A DNA stretch of 64,000 bases from a virus. The notes below the pieces were generated by a model, which did not search any database, was not told where the DNA came from, and saw only the letters and a program-made list of their open reading frames with translations. Each line of letters starts with the position of its first letter. Within the stretch, counting starts at the first letter, position 1. Below, piece by piece: positions 1-59,434 of this stretch. The stretch is taken from IMG/VR virus record IMGVR_UViG_3300043411_000715, positions 1 to 64,000 of that record; one strand, 5' to 3'. The position numbers and the translations under genes are program-made.

Positions 1-1
1 G

Positions 2-88
2 GTTGTCGGCCTGCAGCACGCGGCCGATTGTGTGGTGGCGCAGTACGAGCGCGAGGCCATGCTGGTCTGCGGTGGGAGCATGCAATGA
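2..88 (+). CDS. 3' end of small conserved lysis-cassette protein (partial)
   Basis: Only the last 28 codons are inside the window. They end in the residues CGGSMQ and are identical to the C-terminus of the 72-aa protein at 58474-58692. A diverged relative lies at 25286-25495 (ending CGGSVQ). The stop overlaps the next start in an ATGA arrangement. Function unknown. It always sits between a tiny Trp-rich peptide gene and an HTH-like gene, just upstream of the spanins, so a lysis-cassette accessory role is inferred from position only. Confidence 0.75.
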   Translation, partial: VVGLQHAADCVVAQYEREAMLVCGGSMQ

Positions 89-303
89 AGCCAGAGCGAC
101 GTGGTGGACGACGCAACTTCTGGACGCGGTTCGATGACGCGTTGCTGCGCGACAACTTCGACCGCATGAGCTTGGCCGAGCTGTGCCGCATGCTGGGGCG
201 CGATCCAGGCGCCATCGGCGCGCGCTGCGGCAAGCTGGGCATCACCGCGCGCGAAGGCGGCTCCCAGGCGCTGCATCAAGCATGGTTCGGGGTGGCGCAA
301 TGA
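85..303 (+). CDS. Small HTH-like protein of lysis cassette 1
   Basis: 72 residues, start ATG overlapping the preceding stop. The basic N-terminus (MKPERRGGRRNFW) precedes a segment, LAELCRMLGR followed by a second helix, that looks like a short helix-turn-helix of the GcrA/SANT-like kind. It is a divergent allele of 58689-58910. The first 42 nt are nearly identical, then the sequences drift apart. Its stop overlaps the i-spanin start. DNA binding is inferred from the helix pattern; no partner is visible. Confidence 0.6.
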   Translation: MKPERRGGRRNFWTRFDDALLRDNFDRMSLAELCRMLGRDPGAIGARCGKLGITAREGGSQALHQAWFGVAQ

Positions 304-815
304 TCCCCGTCCGCGCTTACATCGCCGCCGGCCTGGTCGCCGCCTTGCTGGCCTTGGCCGGCTGGTGGCACCTGTCGCGTGTGCACGCGGCTGAACGAGC
401 CGTGCACGCCCACTATGCCGTGGTGCTGGCCGAGATCAGCGCCAAGACAGCGAAAGCTGAAACCGAGTTCCGCGCCACTGAGACGGCGTGGCGAGATGCT
501 TTTGACAAGGAGGCCCGAGATGGTCGAGAAAAGATTGCTGCCGCGCATGCTGATGCTGACGCTGCTCACGCTGCTGGTGAGCGCATGCGCGCAGCCCTCG
601 CACGTTATCGCGCCGCCGCCCGTGCCACCGCAGGTGCCGTCGCTTCCCAGCGAAGCGCGGGTGAGCTTGATTCCCGTGCCGCCGATCTGCCAGCCGAGCT
701 GCTCGCAAGGCATACGCGAGAGCTTGAGCAGGTCGGCCGATTTGCTGACGAACTCCGCGCCCGTGGACTCACCTGCGAGCGCAGCGCCGATGCGCTGACG
801 GGCGCCCAAAAATGA
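300..815 (+). CDS. Rz: i-spanin (Rz-like), cassette 1
   Basis: 171 residues. One N-terminal transmembrane helix (about residues 7-24) is followed by a long Ala/Glu/Arg-rich periplasmic coiled coil, the usual Rz layout. The protein would sit in the inner membrane and pair with the o-spanin nested in another frame at 520-798 to fuse inner and outer membranes at the end of lysis. The start overlaps the preceding stop (ATGA). It differs clearly from the other two i-spanins, which share an N-terminus beginning MTLN. Confidence 0.8.
   Translation: MIPVRAYIAAGLVAALLALAGWWHLSRVHAAERAVHAHYAVVLAEISAKTAKAETEFRATETAWRDAFDKEARDGREKIAAAHADADAAHAAGERMRAALARYRAAARATAGAVASQRSAGELDSRAADLPAELLARHTRELEQVGRFADELRARGLTCERSADALTGAQK
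520..798 (+). CDS. Rz1: o-spanin lipoprotein (Rz1-like), nested in Rz, cassette 1
   Basis: 92 residues read in a different frame wholly inside the i-spanin gene, as in lambda Rz/Rz1. I chose the ATG at 520 because AAGGAGG lies 6-7 nt upstream. The signal peptide ends in a lipobox (LLVSAC), followed by the Pro-rich segment typical of o-spanins (APPPVPPQVPSLP) and a conserved-looking CQPSCSQ that recurs as CLPSCSQ in cassette 2. It should be an outer-membrane lipoprotein. Confidence 0.85.
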   Translation: MVEKRLLPRMLMLTLLTLLVSACAQPSHVIAPPPVPPQVPSLPSEARVSLIPVPPICQPSCSQGIRESLSRSADLLTNSAPVDSPASAAPMR

Positions 816-958: not shown

Positions 959-3463
959 ATGGCTGTCATTCAGATCAAGAACTTTGCCGGCGAAATGCCG
1001 CGCATGCCGGCGCGCGCGCTGGGCGGCAATGGCGCGCAAGCCAACGAGAACTTGCTGGCGACAGCGACCGAGTTTCGTCCTTTGCTGGGCGATGTGACGG
1101 CGGCGGCTGGGCTGGCCGGCGCCAAGACGCTGTACCGCCTGAGCCGCAACGCCGACGGCAGCCTGCGCGCCAACGACGATACGAGCGGGTGGATCGTGGA
1201 GGCGGCCGAGAAGAACTACGTCAAGGGCCAGCTCAACGACGATGCCACGGAGCGCACGGCGGTGACGTGGGCTGATGGCACCCAGGCGCCGCGCGTGATC
1301 GACGCCAAGGGCGCCGACCGGGTGCTGGGCGTGCCCAAGCCGCCCAAGCCAGGGGTGACGCTGGTGGCGGTGGCGCAGTTCACGATGGATGACGCGCTGA
1401 CCTGGCTGTCCAAGGACTTGATCCCGGCCCTGAAGACCGCGCTGGCGGATCGTCTGGTTGAGGCGCGCGTGAGCGGCGGCCAGTCGGTGGCGGGGTCAAC
1501 AAGCCTGTTTGGTATGTCGGTCAAGCCTGACGAGCCGTGGCTCGTGTACAAGACGCGCACGCGCGTCGAGGCCGAGGCGCTGGGCCTGACGAGCCCGGAG
1601 CTGGCTGGATGGGACGCCGGCGGCGGGCAATGGGCGGTGAATATTGAACTGCTGCCGATGTGGGGGCGCGTGACGGACAAGCCCGGACTGAAGACTGCGG
1701 TGCAGGCAATCACCCTGCCAAGCGGGGATGCGGCGTTCACGTCGGAGCAGGCCGACAAGCTGACCGACAAGCTGGCGGCGCTGTTTGACCCGGAAGGCGA
1801 CAGCCTCAAGGCCCGTCGCACGGACTTGACGGCACAGGGGCAGAAATTTTCGGACCTCATGTCCTCCGCGGCTGGCGCGGCCACGCCGCGCCCGGTCGAG
1901 CCGACAAAGCCAGCCGGGCCTGAGTTTGTGTCGCAGCCGGACGAGGGCTACGTGCGCACGCCGGCCTGGGTGCAGTACGACGCCGACATGGCGGCTTATC
2001 GTGCGGCGCTGGCTGATTGGCAGGCCGCCGGCGGGGCGCAGGCGCAAAGCGCGGCGGACACGGTTGCAGCGCTGCAGACAGTGCGCATCAGGGCTGAGGC
2101 GTTGTCCAACGACATCGAGGCGGAATACTTTCGGCGCAAGGACAAGATTGGCGATCTGATCCAGTCGATGATCGACGGCGAGCCGTTGTTTGGTGGCGAG
2201 GATGGCGAGGCGATGATCAAGGTGGACCCGGACCGCATCATCGACACGCGCTTTTACGTGGCCACATACGTGACAGATTGGGGCGAGGAGTCGCAACCGT
2301 CCGAGGTGTCAGAGATGCTGGAGGTTGACCAGAACGACCAGGTGACGGTGACGGTGGCCGCGCCGCCGGCCGGGCGCAACGTGCAGAAGTGGCGGCTGTA
2401 CCGCTCGAACGTGGGATCGCAGTCGGCGGCGTTTCAGTTCGTCGATGAGTTCCTGGTCACAACCCTGAGCTACACCGACGCGCTGAAGGGCGAGCAGTTG
2501 GGCGAGCCGTGCCCGACGTTCACCTGGGCTGAACCGCCGGTGCGCTTGGATCAGGGCAGCGCGGCAGCGATCAAGCCGCCCAAGGGGCCTGACCCGTACC
2601 TGCGCGGGCTGGTCGGCATGCCCAACGGCATCCTGGCGGGCTTCATCGACAACTACGTGGCGTTCTGCCACCCCTACCACCCCTATGCCTGGCCGGTGGA
2701 GTACCAGATCACGACCGAGCACCCGATCGTCGGGCTGGGGGCGTTTGGACAGACGCTGTTCGTGGGCACGATGGGGCATCCGTACCTGATCAGCGGCGCG
2801 GACTCGGCCAGCATGTCGGCGCAGAAGCTGCCGCACTTTCAGGCCTGCGTGGCGCGCCGTTCGATCGTGGGCGTGGGGGATGGCGTGGTGTATGCCAGCC
2901 CGGACGGCCTGTGCCTGGCCAGCGCGCGCGGCGTGGAGGTGCTGACGCAGGGCTTTTTCTCGCGCGAGGACTGGCAGGCGCTGAACCCCGGCTCGATCGT
3001 GGCGGCCGAGCACGAGGGGGTGTACTACTTCTGGACGGGCGCGGGCTGCTGGGCGCTGGATTTTCTGGCCAAGAAGCTGGGACGCGTGACGGATGCGCCG
3101 GTGACGGCGGTGTGCCGCGACATCCTGGCTGACCACTTGTTTGCCGCCGTGGGCGCGAACGTGGTCAAACTGTTTGCGGGCGGCCGGCGCGAGGGGCGCT
3201 GGCGCTCGGGCACGATGGTGATGCAGGCCCAGGCGCCGCTGGCCTGGGTGCAGGCCGATGGCGACCAGAGCCCGTCGAATCCCGTGCAGGTGCGCTGGTA
3301 CGGCGATGGGCAGTTGCGTCACACGGCGGTGCTAGACGGCATCGAACCCAAGCGCCTGCCGCCGGGCCGCTGGCTGGAGCAGGAGGTGGAGGTGGTGAGC
3401 CGCGCGCGCCTGACCAAGGTGTTCATGGCCACCAGCACAGCCGAGCTGAAGGGGGCTGACTGA
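959..3463 (+). CDS. Large tail/virion structural protein, beta-propeller-like
   Basis: 834 residues, RBS GAGAGG upstream. The N-terminus (FAGEMPRMPARAL...AQANENLLATATEFRPLLG) has the pattern of podoviral tail-hub or tail-nozzle proteins in which many short beta-repeats follow. A fibronectin-like stretch around residues 430-510 contains the phrase WRLYRSN. The C-terminal half has repeated Gly/Val-rich blades (residues about 560-760). It probably forms part of the short tail, in a role like P22 gp10 or T7 gp12. The family call rests on pattern only. The next gene overlaps by one base (TGATG). Confidence 0.6.
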   Translation: MAVIQIKNFAGEMPRMPARALGGNGAQANENLLATATEFRPLLGDVTAAAGLAGAKTLYRLSRNADGSLRANDDTSGWIVEAAEKNYVKGQLNDDATERTAVTWADGTQAPRVIDAKGADRVLGVPKPPKPGVTLVAVAQFTMDDALTWLSKDLIPALKTALADRLVEARVSGGQSVAGSTSLFGMSVKPDEPWLVYKTRTRVEAEALGLTSPELAGWDAGGGQWAVNIELLPMWGRVTDKPGLKTAVQAITLPSGDAAFTSEQADKLTDKLAALFDPEGDSLKARRTDLTAQGQKFSDLMSSAAGAATPRPVEPTKPAGPEFVSQPDEGYVRTPAWVQYDADMAAYRAALADWQAAGGAQAQSAADTVAALQTVRIRAEALSNDIEAEYFRRKDKIGDLIQSMIDGEPLFGGEDGEAMIKVDPDRIIDTRFYVATYVTDWGEESQPSEVSEMLEVDQNDQVTVTVAAPPAGRNVQKWRLYRSNVGSQSAAFQFVDEFLVTTLSYTDALKGEQLGEPCPTFTWAEPPVRLDQGSAAAIKPPKGPDPYLRGLVGMPNGILAGFIDNYVAFCHPYHPYAWPVEYQITTEHPIVGLGAFGQTLFVGTMGHPYLISGADSASMSAQKLPHFQACVARRSIVGVGDGVVYASPDGLCLASARGVEVLTQGFFSREDWQALNPGSIVAAEHEGVYYFWTGAGCWALDFLAKKLGRVTDAPVTAVCRDILADHLFAAVGANVVKLFAGGRREGRWRSGTMVMQAQAPLAWVQADGDQSPSNPVQVRWYGDGQLRHTAVLDGIEPKRLPPGRWLEQEVEVVSRARLTKVFMATSTAELKGAD

Positions 3464-24443: not shown

Positions 24444-24560
24444 ATGACGCGCCGCTGGTATCGCGCGGCGGCGCACATGTTGCGCGGCTGCGGCCGCATC
24501 ACCACGGCTCGAATTGCCGAGAGCAAGGCGCGGCGGGCACGCAAAGGAGCATTCGATTGA
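24444..24560 (+). CDS. 38-aa basic small protein
   Basis: ATG at 24444 leads to a 38-residue Arg/Ala-rich peptide (MTRRWYRAAAHMLRGCGRIT...). Its stop overlaps a TTG that could start the Gp49-like gene. No good RBS is visible. Possibly real because it fills the gap and couples to the next frame; function unknown. Confidence 0.35.
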   Translation: MTRRWYRAAAHMLRGCGRITTARIAESKARRARKGAFD

Positions 24561-24601
24561 GTACCAACAATGCCGATCTGAACTCGGCCAACTTAGGAGC
24601 C

Positions 24602-24982
24602 ATGATGAACCACACCACTGAAACTGAAATCGCGGCCGCATCGACCGCAGAGCGCGTGACGCCTGCGGACATCGAGGCAGAGATTTCCAGCGAGCACTTC
24701 TTCACGGCGCGCGAGGGCCGTGCGGGCGCTCTTGAGTCCGACACCTACGTGGGCCGCGAGCGCCCCACCGCAGATAACTCCGACCTCCTGCCGCTGGAGC
24801 TGCTGACCTTCTGCGTCCTGGTGCTGCGCAACGGCTTCACCGTCACTGGCGAGAGTGCGTGCGTCAGCCCGGAGAACTTCAATGCCGAGATTGGCCGTCG
24901 CGTCGCCCGCGAACACGCGGTCAACAAAATCTGGCCGCTGCTGGGATTTCGTCTGCGCGACAAGTTGGCGTCAAGGTCATGA
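24602..24982 (+). CDS. Gp49-like family protein
   Basis: 126 residues from ATG 24602, chosen because TTAGGAGCC precedes it; an upstream TTG at 24557 would add 15 residues. The C-terminal half matches the Phage Gp49/66 family pattern: LTFCVLVLRNGFTVTGESAC, FNAEIGRRVAREHA and IWPLLGFRLRDKL. The molecular function of the family is not established. It opens lysis cassette 2 and overlaps the holin start by 4 nt. Confidence 0.75.
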   Translation: MMNHTTETEIAAASTAERVTPADIEAEISSEHFFTAREGRAGALESDTYVGRERPTADNSDLLPLELLTFCVLVLRNGFTVTGESACVSPENFNAEIGRRVAREHAVNKIWPLLGFRLRDKLASRS

Positions 24983-25209
24983 GCACCCTGCAAGACTTCG
25001 GCGGCTACCTGGGCCGTGTGTTTGACGCCAAGACGCTGATCGCGCTGGCCCTGATCGGCTGCGCGACCTACCTCGCTTCGATCCGCATCCTTGACGCCGC
25101 CGCATGGGTGAGCATGTGCACCACCGTGGGCGCGTTTTGGGGCGTGGGTGCGGTGGCATCTTCGCCCAGTGGCATGCAGGCGCTGGCGAAACTGGGAGGA
25201 TCGAAATGA
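24979..25209 (+). CDS. Putative holin, cassette 2
   Basis: 76 residues with two predicted membrane segments (about residues 19-36 and 43-60), a short charged C-terminus and no signal peptidase site, fitting a class II holin. It would make the inner-membrane lesion that starts lysis. The start overlaps the Gp49-like stop and its stop overlaps the tiny gene at 25206. No endolysin gene lies in this cassette. Confidence 0.65.
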   Translation: MSTLQDFGGYLGRVFDAKTLIALALIGCATYLASIRILDAAAWVSMCTTVGAFWGVGAVASSPSGMQALAKLGGSK

Positions 25210-25289
25210 TCGACATCGGCGAATGGATCGACTGGGCCATCAGCATCTGGCTGCGCTGGATGATGGGTGTGCGGGAGCGGTGGGCATGA
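25206..25289 (+). CDS. 27-aa Trp-rich peptide gene, cassette 2
   Basis: The peptide MIDIGEWIDWAISIWLRWMM plus a short basic tail is bracketed by ATGA-type overlaps with genes on both sides. An analogous 18-aa peptide (MLDFWDWCISTWLAWWCA) stands in the same slot at 58421. The shared pattern is M-hydrophobic-D, W at two spacings, then a W-rich hydrophobic end. It could be a small membrane peptide that tunes the holin; this is inference. Confidence 0.6.
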   Translation: MIDIGEWIDWAISIWLRWMMGVRERWA

Positions 25290-25495
25290 TCGTATTCGGA
25301 GCCATCCAGACCGGCGCTGACGGCAAGCAATACGGCGTACGCTACCTGCTCACGCGCGAGGAGCTGGCCGGGCTGCAGGCGGCCGGCCTGGTGGGCGAGG
25401 TCGAGCAGATCGACGGCATGCAAGCCGTGGCCGATGGCATCGTGGCGATGTACGAGCGCGAGGCGGTGCTGGCCTGCGGCGGGAGCGTGCAATGA
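25286..25495 (+). CDS. Conserved 69-aa lysis-cassette protein
   Basis: Homologous along its length to 58474-58692 and to the partial gene at 2-88. Shared features are YGVRYLLT / YAVRYLLT, a repeated GLQ-A-GL-G segment, a D-A--V--YEREA motif and the C-terminal CGGS. It overlaps both neighbours. Function unknown; conserved order implies a role tied to the cassette. Confidence 0.65.
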   Translation: MIVFGAIQTGADGKQYGVRYLLTREELAGLQAAGLVGEVEQIDGMQAVADGIVAMYEREAVLACGGSVQ

Positions 25496-25782
25496 GCGCA
25501 TGGAGCGTGACCGACGATGCCGCGATGCTGGATTACGGCACGGTGCCGGTGCGTGCACTGGCCCAGCGCCTGCGCCGCTCGATTGGCAAGGTGTACGACC
25601 GTGCGCGGACGCTTGGGCTGACGCGCAAATACCGTGGCGGAGAGCCATATGGAGGCACCATGAAGCCGAAGAAAACGCATGTGCGCTATCGCAGCGCGAT
25701 CACTGGGCGCTGGGTGACCGAGGCCTACGCCAAGGCGCATCCCGCGACGACCGTGCGCCACATTATCAAGGGGGGCGTGTGA
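25492..25782 (+). CDS. HTH-like protein fused to small basic module
   Basis: 96 residues. The N-terminal about 55 residues (VPVRALAQRLRRSIGKVYDRARTLGL) look like the HTH-type protein found in this slot in the other two cassettes. The C-terminal 40 residues (RYRSAITGRWVTEAYAKAHP) match a small phage protein that is usually free-standing. An internal ATG at 25661 with GGAGG upstream would yield that 40-aa protein alone, so two products are possible. Confidence 0.6.
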   Translation: MSAWSVTDDAAMLDYGTVPVRALAQRLRRSIGKVYDRARTLGLTRKYRGGEPYGGTMKPKKTHVRYRSAITGRWVTEAYAKAHPATTVRHIIKGGV

Positions 25783-26351
25783 CCCTCAACTTGCTCCCTT
25801 GGTGGGCTTTTGCCGCCGCCGGCGCCGTGGCCGGTGCTCTGCTGGCCGGTGGCGTGCAGCAAACGCGCGTCAGCAATGCCAAGGCGGAACTGGCGCAGGT
25901 ACGCGAGCAGCACGCCAAGGCCGTTGCCGACGCCGCGCTGGCCAAGGCTGCAGCCCACGCCCGCGCCCTCGAAATCGAGCGCGAGCTGACCGCGCGCGAG
26001 CAGGCCCTGCAAGCCACGATTGACAAGCAAGATCAGGATGCCCGACATGCTCAAGCCCAACACGCTGCTGACCGCGCTGCTGCCGCTGCTGCTGCTGACC
26101 GCCTGCGCGAGCAACTCGCCACTATCACCCGTGCCGCAAGTGCCGGTGCTCGTGTCCAAGCAGATTCAAATTCCAGAGCTGCCCGAGAGCGCGAAGCAGC
26201 CGACGCCACCACCCGAATGCTTGCCGAGCTGCTCGCAAGCGCTAGCGACCGAGCGGGAACGCTGGCTGTCTTTGCTGACGCCGCCCACGCCGCCGGCACA
26301 AGCTGCGAGCGCGCCTACACCAGTGCCCGCGAGGCCGTGACCGTACGCTGA
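25779..26351 (+). CDS. Rz: i-spanin (Rz-like), cassette 2
   Basis: 190 residues from a GTG that overlaps the previous stop (GTGA). The N-terminal membrane segment LPWWAFAAAGAVAGALLAGG is almost the same as in the cassette 3 i-spanin (LPWWAYAAAGAVAGALLAGG). The coiled-coil remainder is different, so the gene looks recombinant. It hosts the nested o-spanin. Confidence 0.85.
   Translation: MTLNLLPWWAFAAAGAVAGALLAGGVQQTRVSNAKAELAQVREQHAKAVADAALAKAAAHARALEIERELTAREQALQATIDKQDQDARHAQAQHAADRAAAAAAADRLREQLATITRAASAGARVQADSNSRAAREREAADATTRMLAELLASASDRAGTLAVFADAAHAAGTSCERAYTSAREAVTVR
26038..26340 (+). CDS. Rz1: o-spanin lipoprotein (Rz1-like), nested, cassette 2
   Basis: 100 residues in another frame inside the i-spanin gene. 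The signal peptide (LLTALLPLLLLTAC) has lipobox LTAC, followed by a Pro-rich region and CLPSCSQ, which echoes CQPSCSQ of the cassette 1 o-spanin. ATG 26038 was preferred to a TTG at 26020. Confidence 0.85.
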   Translation: MPDMLKPNTLLTALLPLLLLTACASNSPLSPVPQVPVLVSKQIQIPELPESAKQPTPPPECLPSCSQALATERERWLSLLTPPTPPAQAASAPTPVPARP

Positions 26352-56449: not shown

Positions 56450-56844
56450 CGCTCGATCAGTTCCTGCGGTCCACCGTGCAACTGGCCATCGCGGGCGCGC
56501 TGGTGGGCGGGCTGCGTGCGGGGGTGATGAGCTGGCGCAAAAACGGCAAGGCGCGAGCCGTGTCGGATGCGCTGATCGGCGTGGTGTTCGCCGTGGGCAT
56601 GGCCGACTGGCTGACCCCGCCAAGCTACCCCAAGCTGGCCGCGCTGATCGGCCTGCTGGCCGGCACCACTGGGGCGCGGGCGCTGGATGCTGCAAGCGAG
56701 CTGGTGCCCGAGTTTGTGCGCGAACTGGCGCTGGGGTGGGCACGCAAGATCACCGGGGGCAGTGGGCAGCGTCCGCAGTGGCAGCCACCCACTGCCCCGC
56801 CGCGTGGGCGCTTCACACGGGACGAGGATCGCAATGACCGCTGA
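56446..56844 (+). CDS. Putative holin, cassette 3
   Basis: 132 residues. Membrane segments lie at about 10-27, 43-58 and 65-80. A long hydrophilic Pro/Arg-rich tail follows. Position directly before the endolysin (11-nt overlap) supports a holin call. Not related in sequence to the cassette 2 holin. Confidence 0.65.
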   Translation: MTLDQFLRSTVQLAIAGALVGGLRAGVMSWRKNGKARAVSDALIGVVFAVGMADWLTPPSYPKLAALIGLLAGTTGARALDAASELVPEFVRELALGWARKITGGSGQRPQWQPPTAPPRGRFTRDEDRNDR

Positions 56845-57436
56845 ACAATGGCGCGCTGCGCTGCTGCAACTGGGCGTCATCACCATGGCTGCTGACGAGT
56901 GGGCGCCTGTGTTTGCCGACGAGATGCCGCGCATGGGGCCGCGCACCACGGCGCACTTTGTCTCGCAGGTGTTGCACGAGTCGGGTGGGCTGCGCTACCT
57001 GGCCGAGAACCTGAACTACAGCGCGGAGCGCCTGTGCGCGGTATGGCCCAAGCGCTTTCCGAACGCTGACCGCGCCAGGCCCTACGCCCACAACCCCGAA
57101 AAGCTGGCCAATTACGTCTACGCCGGGCGCATGGGCAACATCGATCCCGGCGACGGCTGGCGCTATCGCGGGCGCGGCCTGATCCAGATTACCGGGCGCG
57201 ACAACTACGCGCTGGTGCAAGAGCTGACCGGCCTGCAAACGCTGGACGATCCCGACTTGCTGTGCGAGCCCGGGCCGGCGTTGCTGTCGGCGCTGGCGTG
57301 GTGGGGCGAGTCGGTGCCCGACGCCGAAAACCTGAGCGTGGAGCAGGTGACGCGCCGCGTGAATGGCGGCACGAATGGCCTTGACGACCGGCGCCGATTG
57401 TTTGAGCGCGCGCTGCGCGTGTTGGAGGACGCATGA
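56834..57436 (+). CDS. Endolysin, glycoside hydrolase 19-like
   Basis: 200 residues from ATG 56834. GH19/chitinase-type endolysin motifs: FVSQVLHESGGLRYLAENLN (catalytic Glu in HESGG, about residue 49), YSAERLCAVWPKRF, WRYRGRGLIQITGRDNYA and VTRRVNGGTNGLDDRRRLF. It cleaves glycan strands of peptidoglycan. No signal peptide, so it depends on the holin. The only free-standing endolysin in the window. Confidence 0.92.
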   Translation: MTAEQWRAALLQLGVITMAADEWAPVFADEMPRMGPRTTAHFVSQVLHESGGLRYLAENLNYSAERLCAVWPKRFPNADRARPYAHNPEKLANYVYAGRMGNIDPGDGWRYRGRGLIQITGRDNYALVQELTGLQTLDDPDLLCEPGPALLSALAWWGESVPDAENLSVEQVTRRVNGGTNGLDDRRRLFERALRVLEDA

Positions 57437-58158
57437 CATACACCATCATCTGCATCATCGCCGCAATCCTGCTCGTGCCGGCCATCATGGCCGCGCTGCA
57501 ATTCGCCTCGGCCCTCTACACGCGCACCGCCGAGCGCACCGTGCGCGACTCCGGCATGCCCGATGCCGACCAGGCCGCGTGCATGGACAGCATGGACCTT
57601 GCCCGCGAGCGCGAGCTGCCGGTGATCTTCTACGACTGCATCGCGCCGATCTTGATGCTGCTGGTGCTGCCCTTCGTGCCACGCAGCGCGAACAAGCTGC
57701 CTAGCTGGCTGCGCAAGTGGGACAACAACATCTCAATCAACGGCGACTCGGGCGGCGTGCTGATGCCCGATGGATCGTGGGTGGGCTACTACGACGTGCC
57801 GGACTGGGAGGCCGTGAAGGGCTACCCGCAAGTCAGCTACGACGATCCATCCTATGGCGGCGATGCCTACTACGCGCGCGGCCATCATCCGCGCTCATTC
57901 TGGGCGCGCTACGTCTGGCTTGGCTGGCGCAACCGCGCCACGCAGGCCAGCTTCGACGTCGGCATCGACAGCAGTGCGCCCATCGTCACCGCAGCCGAAG
58001 GCGACGGCTGGCGCATCCGCCGCTCCGGTGACCTGTGGGAAGTGTTCAGTCATCGGAGTTGGCTGCGCTGCTATTACGGCTGGAAGGTGTATGAGGCGCC
58101 AGGCCGCGTGCGGCCTGTGTGCATCGGATTCAGTTTTCGCAAAAGGGACGAGCCATGA
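57433..58158 (+). CDS. Phage membrane-associated protein of unknown function
   Basis: 241 residues with two hydrophobic segments (MTYTIICIIAAILLVPAIMA and ILMLLVLPFV). A C-terminal domain has WARYVWLGWRNRATQASFDV, widely seen in phage lysis regions (I recall a DUF7338-type family). Role unknown; overlaps the endolysin stop by 4 nt. Confidence 0.55.
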   Translation: MTYTIICIIAAILLVPAIMAALQFASALYTRTAERTVRDSGMPDADQAACMDSMDLARERELPVIFYDCIAPILMLLVLPFVPRSANKLPSWLRKWDNNISINGDSGGVLMPDGSWVGYYDVPDWEAVKGYPQVSYDDPSYGGDAYYARGHHPRSFWARYVWLGWRNRATQASFDVGIDSSAPIVTAAEGDGWRIRRSGDLWEVFSHRSWLRCYYGWKVYEAPGRVRPVCIGFSFRKRDEP

Positions 58159-58420: not shown

Positions 58421-58477
58421 ATGCTTGACTTTTGGGACTGGTGCATCAGCACCTGGCTGGCGTGGTGGTGCGCATGA
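58421..58477 (+). CDS. 18-aa Trp-rich peptide gene, cassette 3
   Basis: MLDFWDWCISTWLAWWCA, five Trp in 18 residues. The stop overlaps the next ATG. Same slot and pattern as the 27-aa peptide at 25206. No clear SD of its own; it is likely translated by coupling. Too short for usual gene finders. Confidence 0.55.
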   Translation: MLDFWDWCISTWLAWWCA

Positions 58478-58692
58478 GCGAGTTCAAGGTTTGGAGCGCA
58501 CCCATCACCGGGCGCGATGGACACACCTACGCGGTGCGCTACCTGCTGACCGACGCGGAGCTGACTGGACTGCAATCGGCCGGCCTGATCGGCGATGCCG
58601 ACGAGGTTGTCGGCCTGCAGCACGCGGCCGATTGTGTGGTGGCGCAGTACGAGCGCGAGGCCATGCTGGTCTGCGGTGGGAGCATGCAATGA
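58474..58692 (+). CDS. Conserved 72-aa lysis-cassette protein
   Basis: Full-length version of the partial gene at 2-88 (identical over the shared 28 codons) and homologue of 25286-25495. Contains YAVRYLLTDAELTGLQSAGL and ends CGGSMQ. Function unknown; overlaps both neighbours. Confidence 0.65.
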   Translation: MSEFKVWSAPITGRDGHTYAVRYLLTDAELTGLQSAGLIGDADEVVGLQHAADCVVAQYEREAMLVCGGSMQ

Positions 58693-58720
58693 AGCCAGAG
58701 CGACGTGGTGGACGACGCAA
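58605..58720 (+). repeat. 116-bp exact repeat of window bases 1-116
   Basis: Identical base for base to 1-116. The first mismatch is T58721 versus C117, then nine further matches, then clear divergence. The repeat may extend left of the window start. See findings. Confidence 0.9.
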
Positions 58721-58910
58721 TTTCTGGACGGCCATCGACGACCAAATCCTGCGCGACGGCTTTGACACCATGACGCTGGCCGAGCTGTGCCGCAAGCTGG
58801 GCCGTAAACCCAGCGCCGTGGCGGCGCGCGCCGGCGTGTTGGGGCTTGAGCCGCATGGCGAGTGCGGCGTGCAGGCGCTGCAGCGGGCGTGGTTCGGGGC
58901 GGCGCAATGA
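58689..58910 (+). CDS. Small HTH-like protein, cassette 3
   Basis: 73 residues, divergent allele of 85-303. Same first 14 residues (MKPERRGGRRNFWT), then LAELCRKLGRKPSAVAARAG as the helix-turn-helix-like part. Overlaps both neighbours (ATGA). Confidence 0.6.
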   Translation: MKPERRGGRRNFWTAIDDQILRDGFDTMTLAELCRKLGRKPSAVAARAGVLGLEPHGECGVQALQRAWFGAAQ

Positions 58911-59434
58911 CCCTCAACATCCTGCCCTGGTGGGCCTACGCCGCCGCTGGCGCCGTGGCCGGCGCGCTGCTGGCCGGTGGGCTGCAGCAGGCGCGGGTGA
59001 GCAATGCCAAAGCCGAGCTGGCGCACGAGCAGGTCATCCGCGCCACCCTGCAGGCCGACATTGCAGCGGCATCCGACAAAGCCCGAGCCGATGTCGATAT
59101 CGCCAGGCAGGCCAAAGCTGATGCCGTGGCCGCCGTGGACACAAAATCTCAAAAGGAGCTGGCCGATGCCCACAAAGAAAATGACCGCCTGCGCGCTGTT
59201 GTTCGCATCTCTGCTGACAGCTTGCGCATCCTCGGCGCCAGTTGTCCAGGCCCCGCCGATCCTGTGCCCGCCGCCGCCAGCGCCAGCGGCGTGGGCGATG
59301 CAGCCCCCCAGCTTGATGCAGGCGTTCGAGAAAATATTCTCGATCTCCGCGCCGCCGTGACCGAGGCCGAGGCAACGATCAAATACCTGCAGGGCTACGC
59401 GCGCGCAGTGGCCCAGCCGTCAAGCAATCCTTGA
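58907..59434 (+). CDS. Rz: i-spanin (Rz-like), cassette 3
   Basis: 175 residues. The N-terminal membrane helix (LPWWAYAAAGAVAGALLAGG) is nearly the same as in cassette 2, then a coiled coil with its own sequence. Inner-membrane spanin subunit. A terminator follows at 59443. Confidence 0.85.
   Translation: MTLNILPWWAYAAAGAVAGALLAGGLQQARVSNAKAELAHEQVIRATLQADIAAASDKARADVDIARQAKADAVAAVDTKSQKELADAHKENDRLRAVVRISADSLRILGASCPGPADPVPAAASASGVGDAAPQLDAGVRENILDLRAAVTEAEATIKYLQGYARAVAQPSSNP
59166..59360 (+). CDS. Rz1: o-spanin lipoprotein (Rz1-like), nested, cassette 3
   Basis: 64 residues in another frame inside the i-spanin. AAAGGAG 6-7 nt before ATG 59166. The signal peptide MPTKKMTACALLFASLLTAC ends in lipobox LTAC, followed by a Pro-rich mature part. 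Unrelated in the mature sequence to the other two o-spanins (no CxPSCSQ). Confidence 0.85.
   Translation: MPTKKMTACALLFASLLTACASSAPVVQAPPILCPPPPAPAAWAMQPPSLMQAFEKIFSISAPP

Follow-up and report, generated by a model that had tools for sequence, protein, structure and literature searches.

A 116-bp repeat at the start of a viral contig probably marks an assembly junction between a complete circular Bcep22-like phage and a relative

The DNA analysed here, a window of 64,000 nucleotides, comprises positions 1-64000 of a viral record of 69,491 bp, and base 1 of the window is base 1 of the record, with no sequence further left for comparison. Its first bases recur from position 58605 onwards, which raises the question whether the record describes one long genome or a shorter, circular one that the contig has overrun. 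Direct comparison confirmed that the repeat is real and bore out the description given in an earlier, sequence-only reading: positions 1-116 and 58605-58720 are identical with zero mismatches, a C at 117 faces a T at 58721, positions 118-126 match again, and the copies then split, with mismatches at 127-130 and many beyond (69% identity over 127-240). Among all exact direct repeats of at least 25 bases in the entire 69,491-bp record this tract is the longest; the runners-up (82, 62, 59, 58 and 57 bp) pair the region at 27-32 kb with that at 61-66 kb. At the early-region identity of 0.87, the probability that one chosen 116-bp tract is exact amounts to ~1e-7, and the match is therefore not due to chance. 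The contig begins with sequence that occurs elsewhere in the same record, as would be expected of a branch in an assembly graph. Its other end, at 69491, has no match elsewhere in the record beyond ~68770, so that no second branch is visible there, and a 25-base exact pattern from the tract matched no other IMG/VR viral contig.

We consider it highly probable that the record is an assembly mosaic, in which a complete circular phage (1-58604, phage A) is joined to a related phage (phage B) by a branch at the 116-bp tract. Positions 1-58604 would represent one complete, circularly permuted genome of a Bcep22-like podophage, with base 1 following 58604, and phage B would have been present in the same sample. 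An exact tract of at least 116 bp common to A and B, which runs from the last part of a small ORF into the beginning of an HTH gene, would have given rise to the branch; alternatively, the contig's second copy of the tract may be A's own up to the switch. The contig would start with one exit from the tract (HTH gene a, spanin a and the internal virion protein), make one turn round A and, back at the tract, leave by the other exit into B (HTH gene c, spanin c and leftward early genes), and the last 10.9 kb of the record would belong to phage B. Both the circularity of A and the assignment of the second exit to another phage are what we infer from the sequence.

The contig contains shared stretches of as many as 82 bases in its interior, and the 116-base one lies at its end, as would be expected for an effective word length of 83 to 116. 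Usual maximum k values are 99, 127 and 141; the overlap, which is 116 when exact and 126 when one mismatch is allowed, coincides with none of these. The earlier proposal that the contig start is a k-mer branch is supported as far as a branch at the contig end is concerned; the overlap may or may not be an exact k-mer one, and a common stretch that exceeds k and is flanked by divergent sequence would account for it equally well. According to the COBRA study, assemblers break contigs where paths multiply, leaving end sequences of maxK or maxK-1 (PMC10914622), and the authors of CheckV mention contigs chimeric between closely related viruses as a kind of artefact that awaits detection (PMC8116208).

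The small ORF, the HTH gene and a spanin gene occur in three related cassettes, a (58474-58604 continuing into 1-815), b (25.3-26.35 kb) and c (58474-59434). A gene is indeed cut at the window start, as had been claimed, but it is the small ORF (MSEFKVW...), the copy of which in cassette a ends at base 88 and overlaps the HTH frame at 1-303. Because both copies of the tract are identical there, continuity of the frame across 58604 to 1 is not independent evidence for the join. The third copy of the small ORF, at 25331-25495, which the earlier reading had left unmentioned, is 77% identical to 58528-58692. The small ORF and HTH gene of cassettes a and c go together, but their spanins do not: BLASTP of spanin a (183-815) against spanin c (58862-59434) found no significant full-length relation and only a short related stretch, so that these two spanins are not the alleles they had been taken for. 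Spanins b (25.7-26.35 kb) and c have an N-terminal stretch of 44 aa in common (82%), and their remainders are unrelated. The b/c pair (25286-26348 and 58862-59434) thus shows a mosaic joint within a lysis gene.

Table 1. Coordinates of the repeat copies and of the main genes and modules in the window
Feature	Position	Strand	Remarks
Repeat copy 1	1..126	.	Contig start; putative graph break
Small conserved ORF 1 (MSEFKVW...)	58474..58692	+	On the circle runs from 58604 into 1-88
HTH gene, allele a	85..303	+	PHROG 323, D5-like regulator
Rz-like spanin a	183..815	+	PHROG 312; directly 5' of the internal virion protein
Internal virion protein	959..3463	+	After the lysis module in the Lampropedia and Burkholderiaceae relatives
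Giant DarB-like virion protein, 5003 aa	9295..24306	+	46% to BcepIL02 gp70 (best segment)
Second lysis-side module	24557..26351	+	Gp49_66 (PF13876), holin-like ORF (by inspection), copy of small ORF 1, HTH-like ORF, spanin b
Leftward early genes, putative phage A	26729..35990	-	Lar, RecE-like, RecT/Bet-like
TerS, TerL, portal, major head protein, tail fibre, putative phage A	42441..54729	+	PHROG/Pfam
Endolysin (PHROG 181) and PHROG 35537 protein	56687..58158	+	PHROG 35537 also in the Lampropedia lysis module, before the internal virion protein
Repeat copy 2	58605..58730	.	End of small ORF and start of HTH gene; putative switch point from A to B
Remainder of HTH allele c and spanin c (PHROG 2466)	58721..59434	+	Putative phage B; end-of-genome position as in BcepIL02
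Early region, putative phage B	59435..64000, on to record 69491	-	~85% to 26.9-34.3 kb where alignable

Gene order in relatives bears directly on the join. As determined by PHROG and Pfam matches, 1-58604 also carries acyltransferase and PAPS reductase genes in addition to those in Table 1. Joined from 58604 to 1, it is collinear after rotation with BcepIL02 (NC_012743), where the matches lie at 17.0 (TerS), 24.2 (TerL), 26.4 (portal), 30.3 (MCP), 36.4 (tail fibre), 40.3 (internal virion protein), 42.1 (acyltransferase), 43.5 (PAPS reductase), 51.8 (giant protein) and 62.3 kb (spanin). The tail fibre gene of Lampropedia aestuarii, like that of a Burkholderiaceae MAG, is followed by a PHROG 35537/o57433-like protein, an endolysin and an Rz spanin, and immediately afterwards by the internal virion protein, with a holin called in the Lampropedia copy of this lysis module. 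This is the very order that the join produces, and the closure of a 58.6-kb circle, as first proposed from the sequence, is thus supported by BcepIL02, Lampropedia and the Burkholderiaceae MAG alike. Another related record has an endolysin shortly 3' of the tail fibre. A scan of bacterial genome contigs with the internal virion protein gave no match, and the relatives in bacterial genomes were found with an MCP profile instead.

The same comparison assigns a place to both exits from the tract. Because the tail fibre and endolysin genes lie 5' of 58604, the sequence there properly pairs with base 1 and what follows it. In BcepIL02, spanin c has a homologue (42%) that lies 3' of the giant gene at the genome end, which on the circle is the position before the leftward early genes; the leftward genes of BcepIL02 begin at the opposite end of the same circularly permuted map (PMC9144972). 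An early region B preceded by spanin c therefore looks native to B. Leaving the tract for early genes suits a cassette at the genome end, and leaving it for the internal virion protein suits one situated behind the tail fibre. Read in this way, both exits would be native, and it would be the pairing of 58604 with the branch at 58.7-69.5 kb that is non-native.

The size of the proposed circle fits as well. The giant protein served to find eleven related records, which contain a single MCP each; ten of them measure 54.7-59.3 kb, a range in which a 58.6-kb genome falls; the remaining one has 71.3 kb. The 54.7- and 71.3-kb records are the same phage, identical over their common part. We considered this pair as a parallel case and rejected it, as no internal repeat was present in the three 20-kb stretches compared. 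In a relative of 59,347 bases, the giant gene is opposite in orientation to the head genes, and the portal and major head protein genes flank that for the acyltransferase. The giant gene of phage A is a single gene of 15 kb, compared with 14.0 kb in BcepIL02, and its Lampropedia counterpart in the same place encodes 2812 aa.

The statement that the circle holds one full lysis set stands for the endolysin, which was found once, but not for the spanin modules, of which circle A has two (1-815 and 25.3-26.35 kb). A PHROG 312 match occurs once each in 7 of the 11 related records and in none of the other four. Set against one such match per record, two spanin modules on the circle make a further junction inside A near 24.3-26.4 kb conceivable, and a small chance of it has to be granted. 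In Acidovorax phage AP1, however, the Gp49_66 gene adjoins a leftward integrase and early genes, an arrangement by which module b looks native in its place. The Gp49_66 gene itself (PF13876, 24557-24979) contains ~140 bases that are 72-85% identical in DNA across 86 phage records from many hosts, a high conservation for so wide a spread.

The reading that comes next after an assembly mosaic is a real recombinant, which we regard as unlikely. It would have arisen where cassette a of phage A crossed over with the cassette at the genome end of phage B, giving molecules that lead from the endolysin region of A straight to the early genes of B, and the contig would be a correct reading of such a molecule. 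The exact tract does lie at a module boundary where three cassettes are related, and the restriction of the similarity between spanins b and c to their N-termini indicates that such modules recombine. Yet between its lysis and early genes the product would have no internal virion protein, acyltransferase, PAPS reductase or giant protein, all of which BcepIL02 possesses; it would thus not be a complete phage of the Bcep22-like kind, and only by coincidence would the contig start at this very tract. Equally slight is the chance we give to the idea that crossovers in the short ORF/HTH tract naturally swap whole early regions or drop the 24-kb giant-protein block, and that the contig has caught one of them.

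The sequence beyond the tract, from 58.6 to 69.5 kb, is a second, diverged lysis-plus-early block with its counterpart at 25.3-34.3 kb. Similarity between the blocks is ~85% where they can be aligned (3.3 kb), and the repeat of 25.3-34.3 kb spans 58.5 to ~68.8 kb. The RecE-like proteins of the two blocks are 75% identical and the RecT-like ones 53%; a dN of 0.22 compared with a dS of 0.69 between the RecE copies suggests that both are functional. Scans with spanin c, and with RecE both as a single protein and as an alignment, brought up no record close to either phage. The early region assigned to B also contains a gene for a pentapeptide-repeat protein (record 66413-67165) with internal direct repeats at 66678-67041. 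A single larger phage or element in which the lysis-plus-early block has been duplicated (24.5-36 kb and 58.4-69.5 kb) could account for a continuous record, for the common order of the alignable blocks and for two apparently functional RecE copies. We nevertheless hold it to be very unlikely: the related records are smaller bar one, the duplication breaks the relatives' order, where the internal virion protein comes after tail fibre and lysis genes, and the copies differ as diverged relatives from two lineages would, not as recent duplicates.

Tandem related prophages in one host chromosome, the alternative offered by the sequence-only reading, are scarcely credible even though related phages occur as prophages in Burkholderiales genomes and in one relative a gene that by inspection resembles a tyrosine recombinase is located between giant and early genes, because the junction falls within the HTH gene, the middle unit would be without 24 kb of virion genes, and neither a tyrosine (PF00589) nor a serine (PF00239) integrase was found in the 69,491-bp record, with controls positive in 14/14 and 13/14 genomes.

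What the locus reflects is most likely an ordinary assembly effect and no new biology. On the mosaic reading, the record should be treated as a circularly permuted genome of 58.6 kb and not as a linear one of 69.5 kb, the genes from 58.7 kb on would belong to a second phage, and it would be wrong to credit a single phage with duplicated recombination genes or three spanins. It would also exemplify a complete circle missed by end-repeat detection, because the contig overran its own start along the path of another strain.

Compared with described repeat-induced breaks and strain chimeras (PMC10914622, PMC8116208), the shared end here does not correspond to a standard maximum k and the record has no end-to-end repeat, so that it would escape circular-contig detection. 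The case would resemble them in that the end is common to two paths, the record is larger than the genome and two related viruses share one contig. The relative JC1 is terminally redundant and circularly permuted, and headful packaging is likely for the group (PMC9144972), so that assembly of genomes of this kind yields circles. By TerL, the best phage relatives are Bcep22-like phages of Burkholderia (61-63 kb), with a top identity of 53.7% aa in the phage collection; no record there exceeds 60%, and similarity to Lessievirus lies below genus level. With the Bcep22-like podophages (genus Lessievirus, BcepIL02) the circle shares the collinear order of head, tail, giant and spanin genes as well as a leftward RecE/RecT region, its proteins being 28-54% identical to those of BcepIL02. 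It is slightly smaller (58.6 compared with about 61-63 kb), carries an additional module of endolysin and spanin 3' of the tail fibre and 5' of the internal virion protein and, unlike Lessievirus, contains no tyrosine integrase (PF00589) and no tRNA, none having been found in the analysed sequence. The prophage of Lampropedia aestuarii differs in its shorter giant gene (2812 compared with 5003 aa) and in a spanin that falls into PHROGs other than those of spanin a, but agrees in MCP (78%), TerL (60%), the position of its lysis module, with the tail fibre on one side and the internal virion protein on the other, and a leftward RecE. Phage A appears to represent a new and only distantly related member of an already known group of phages.
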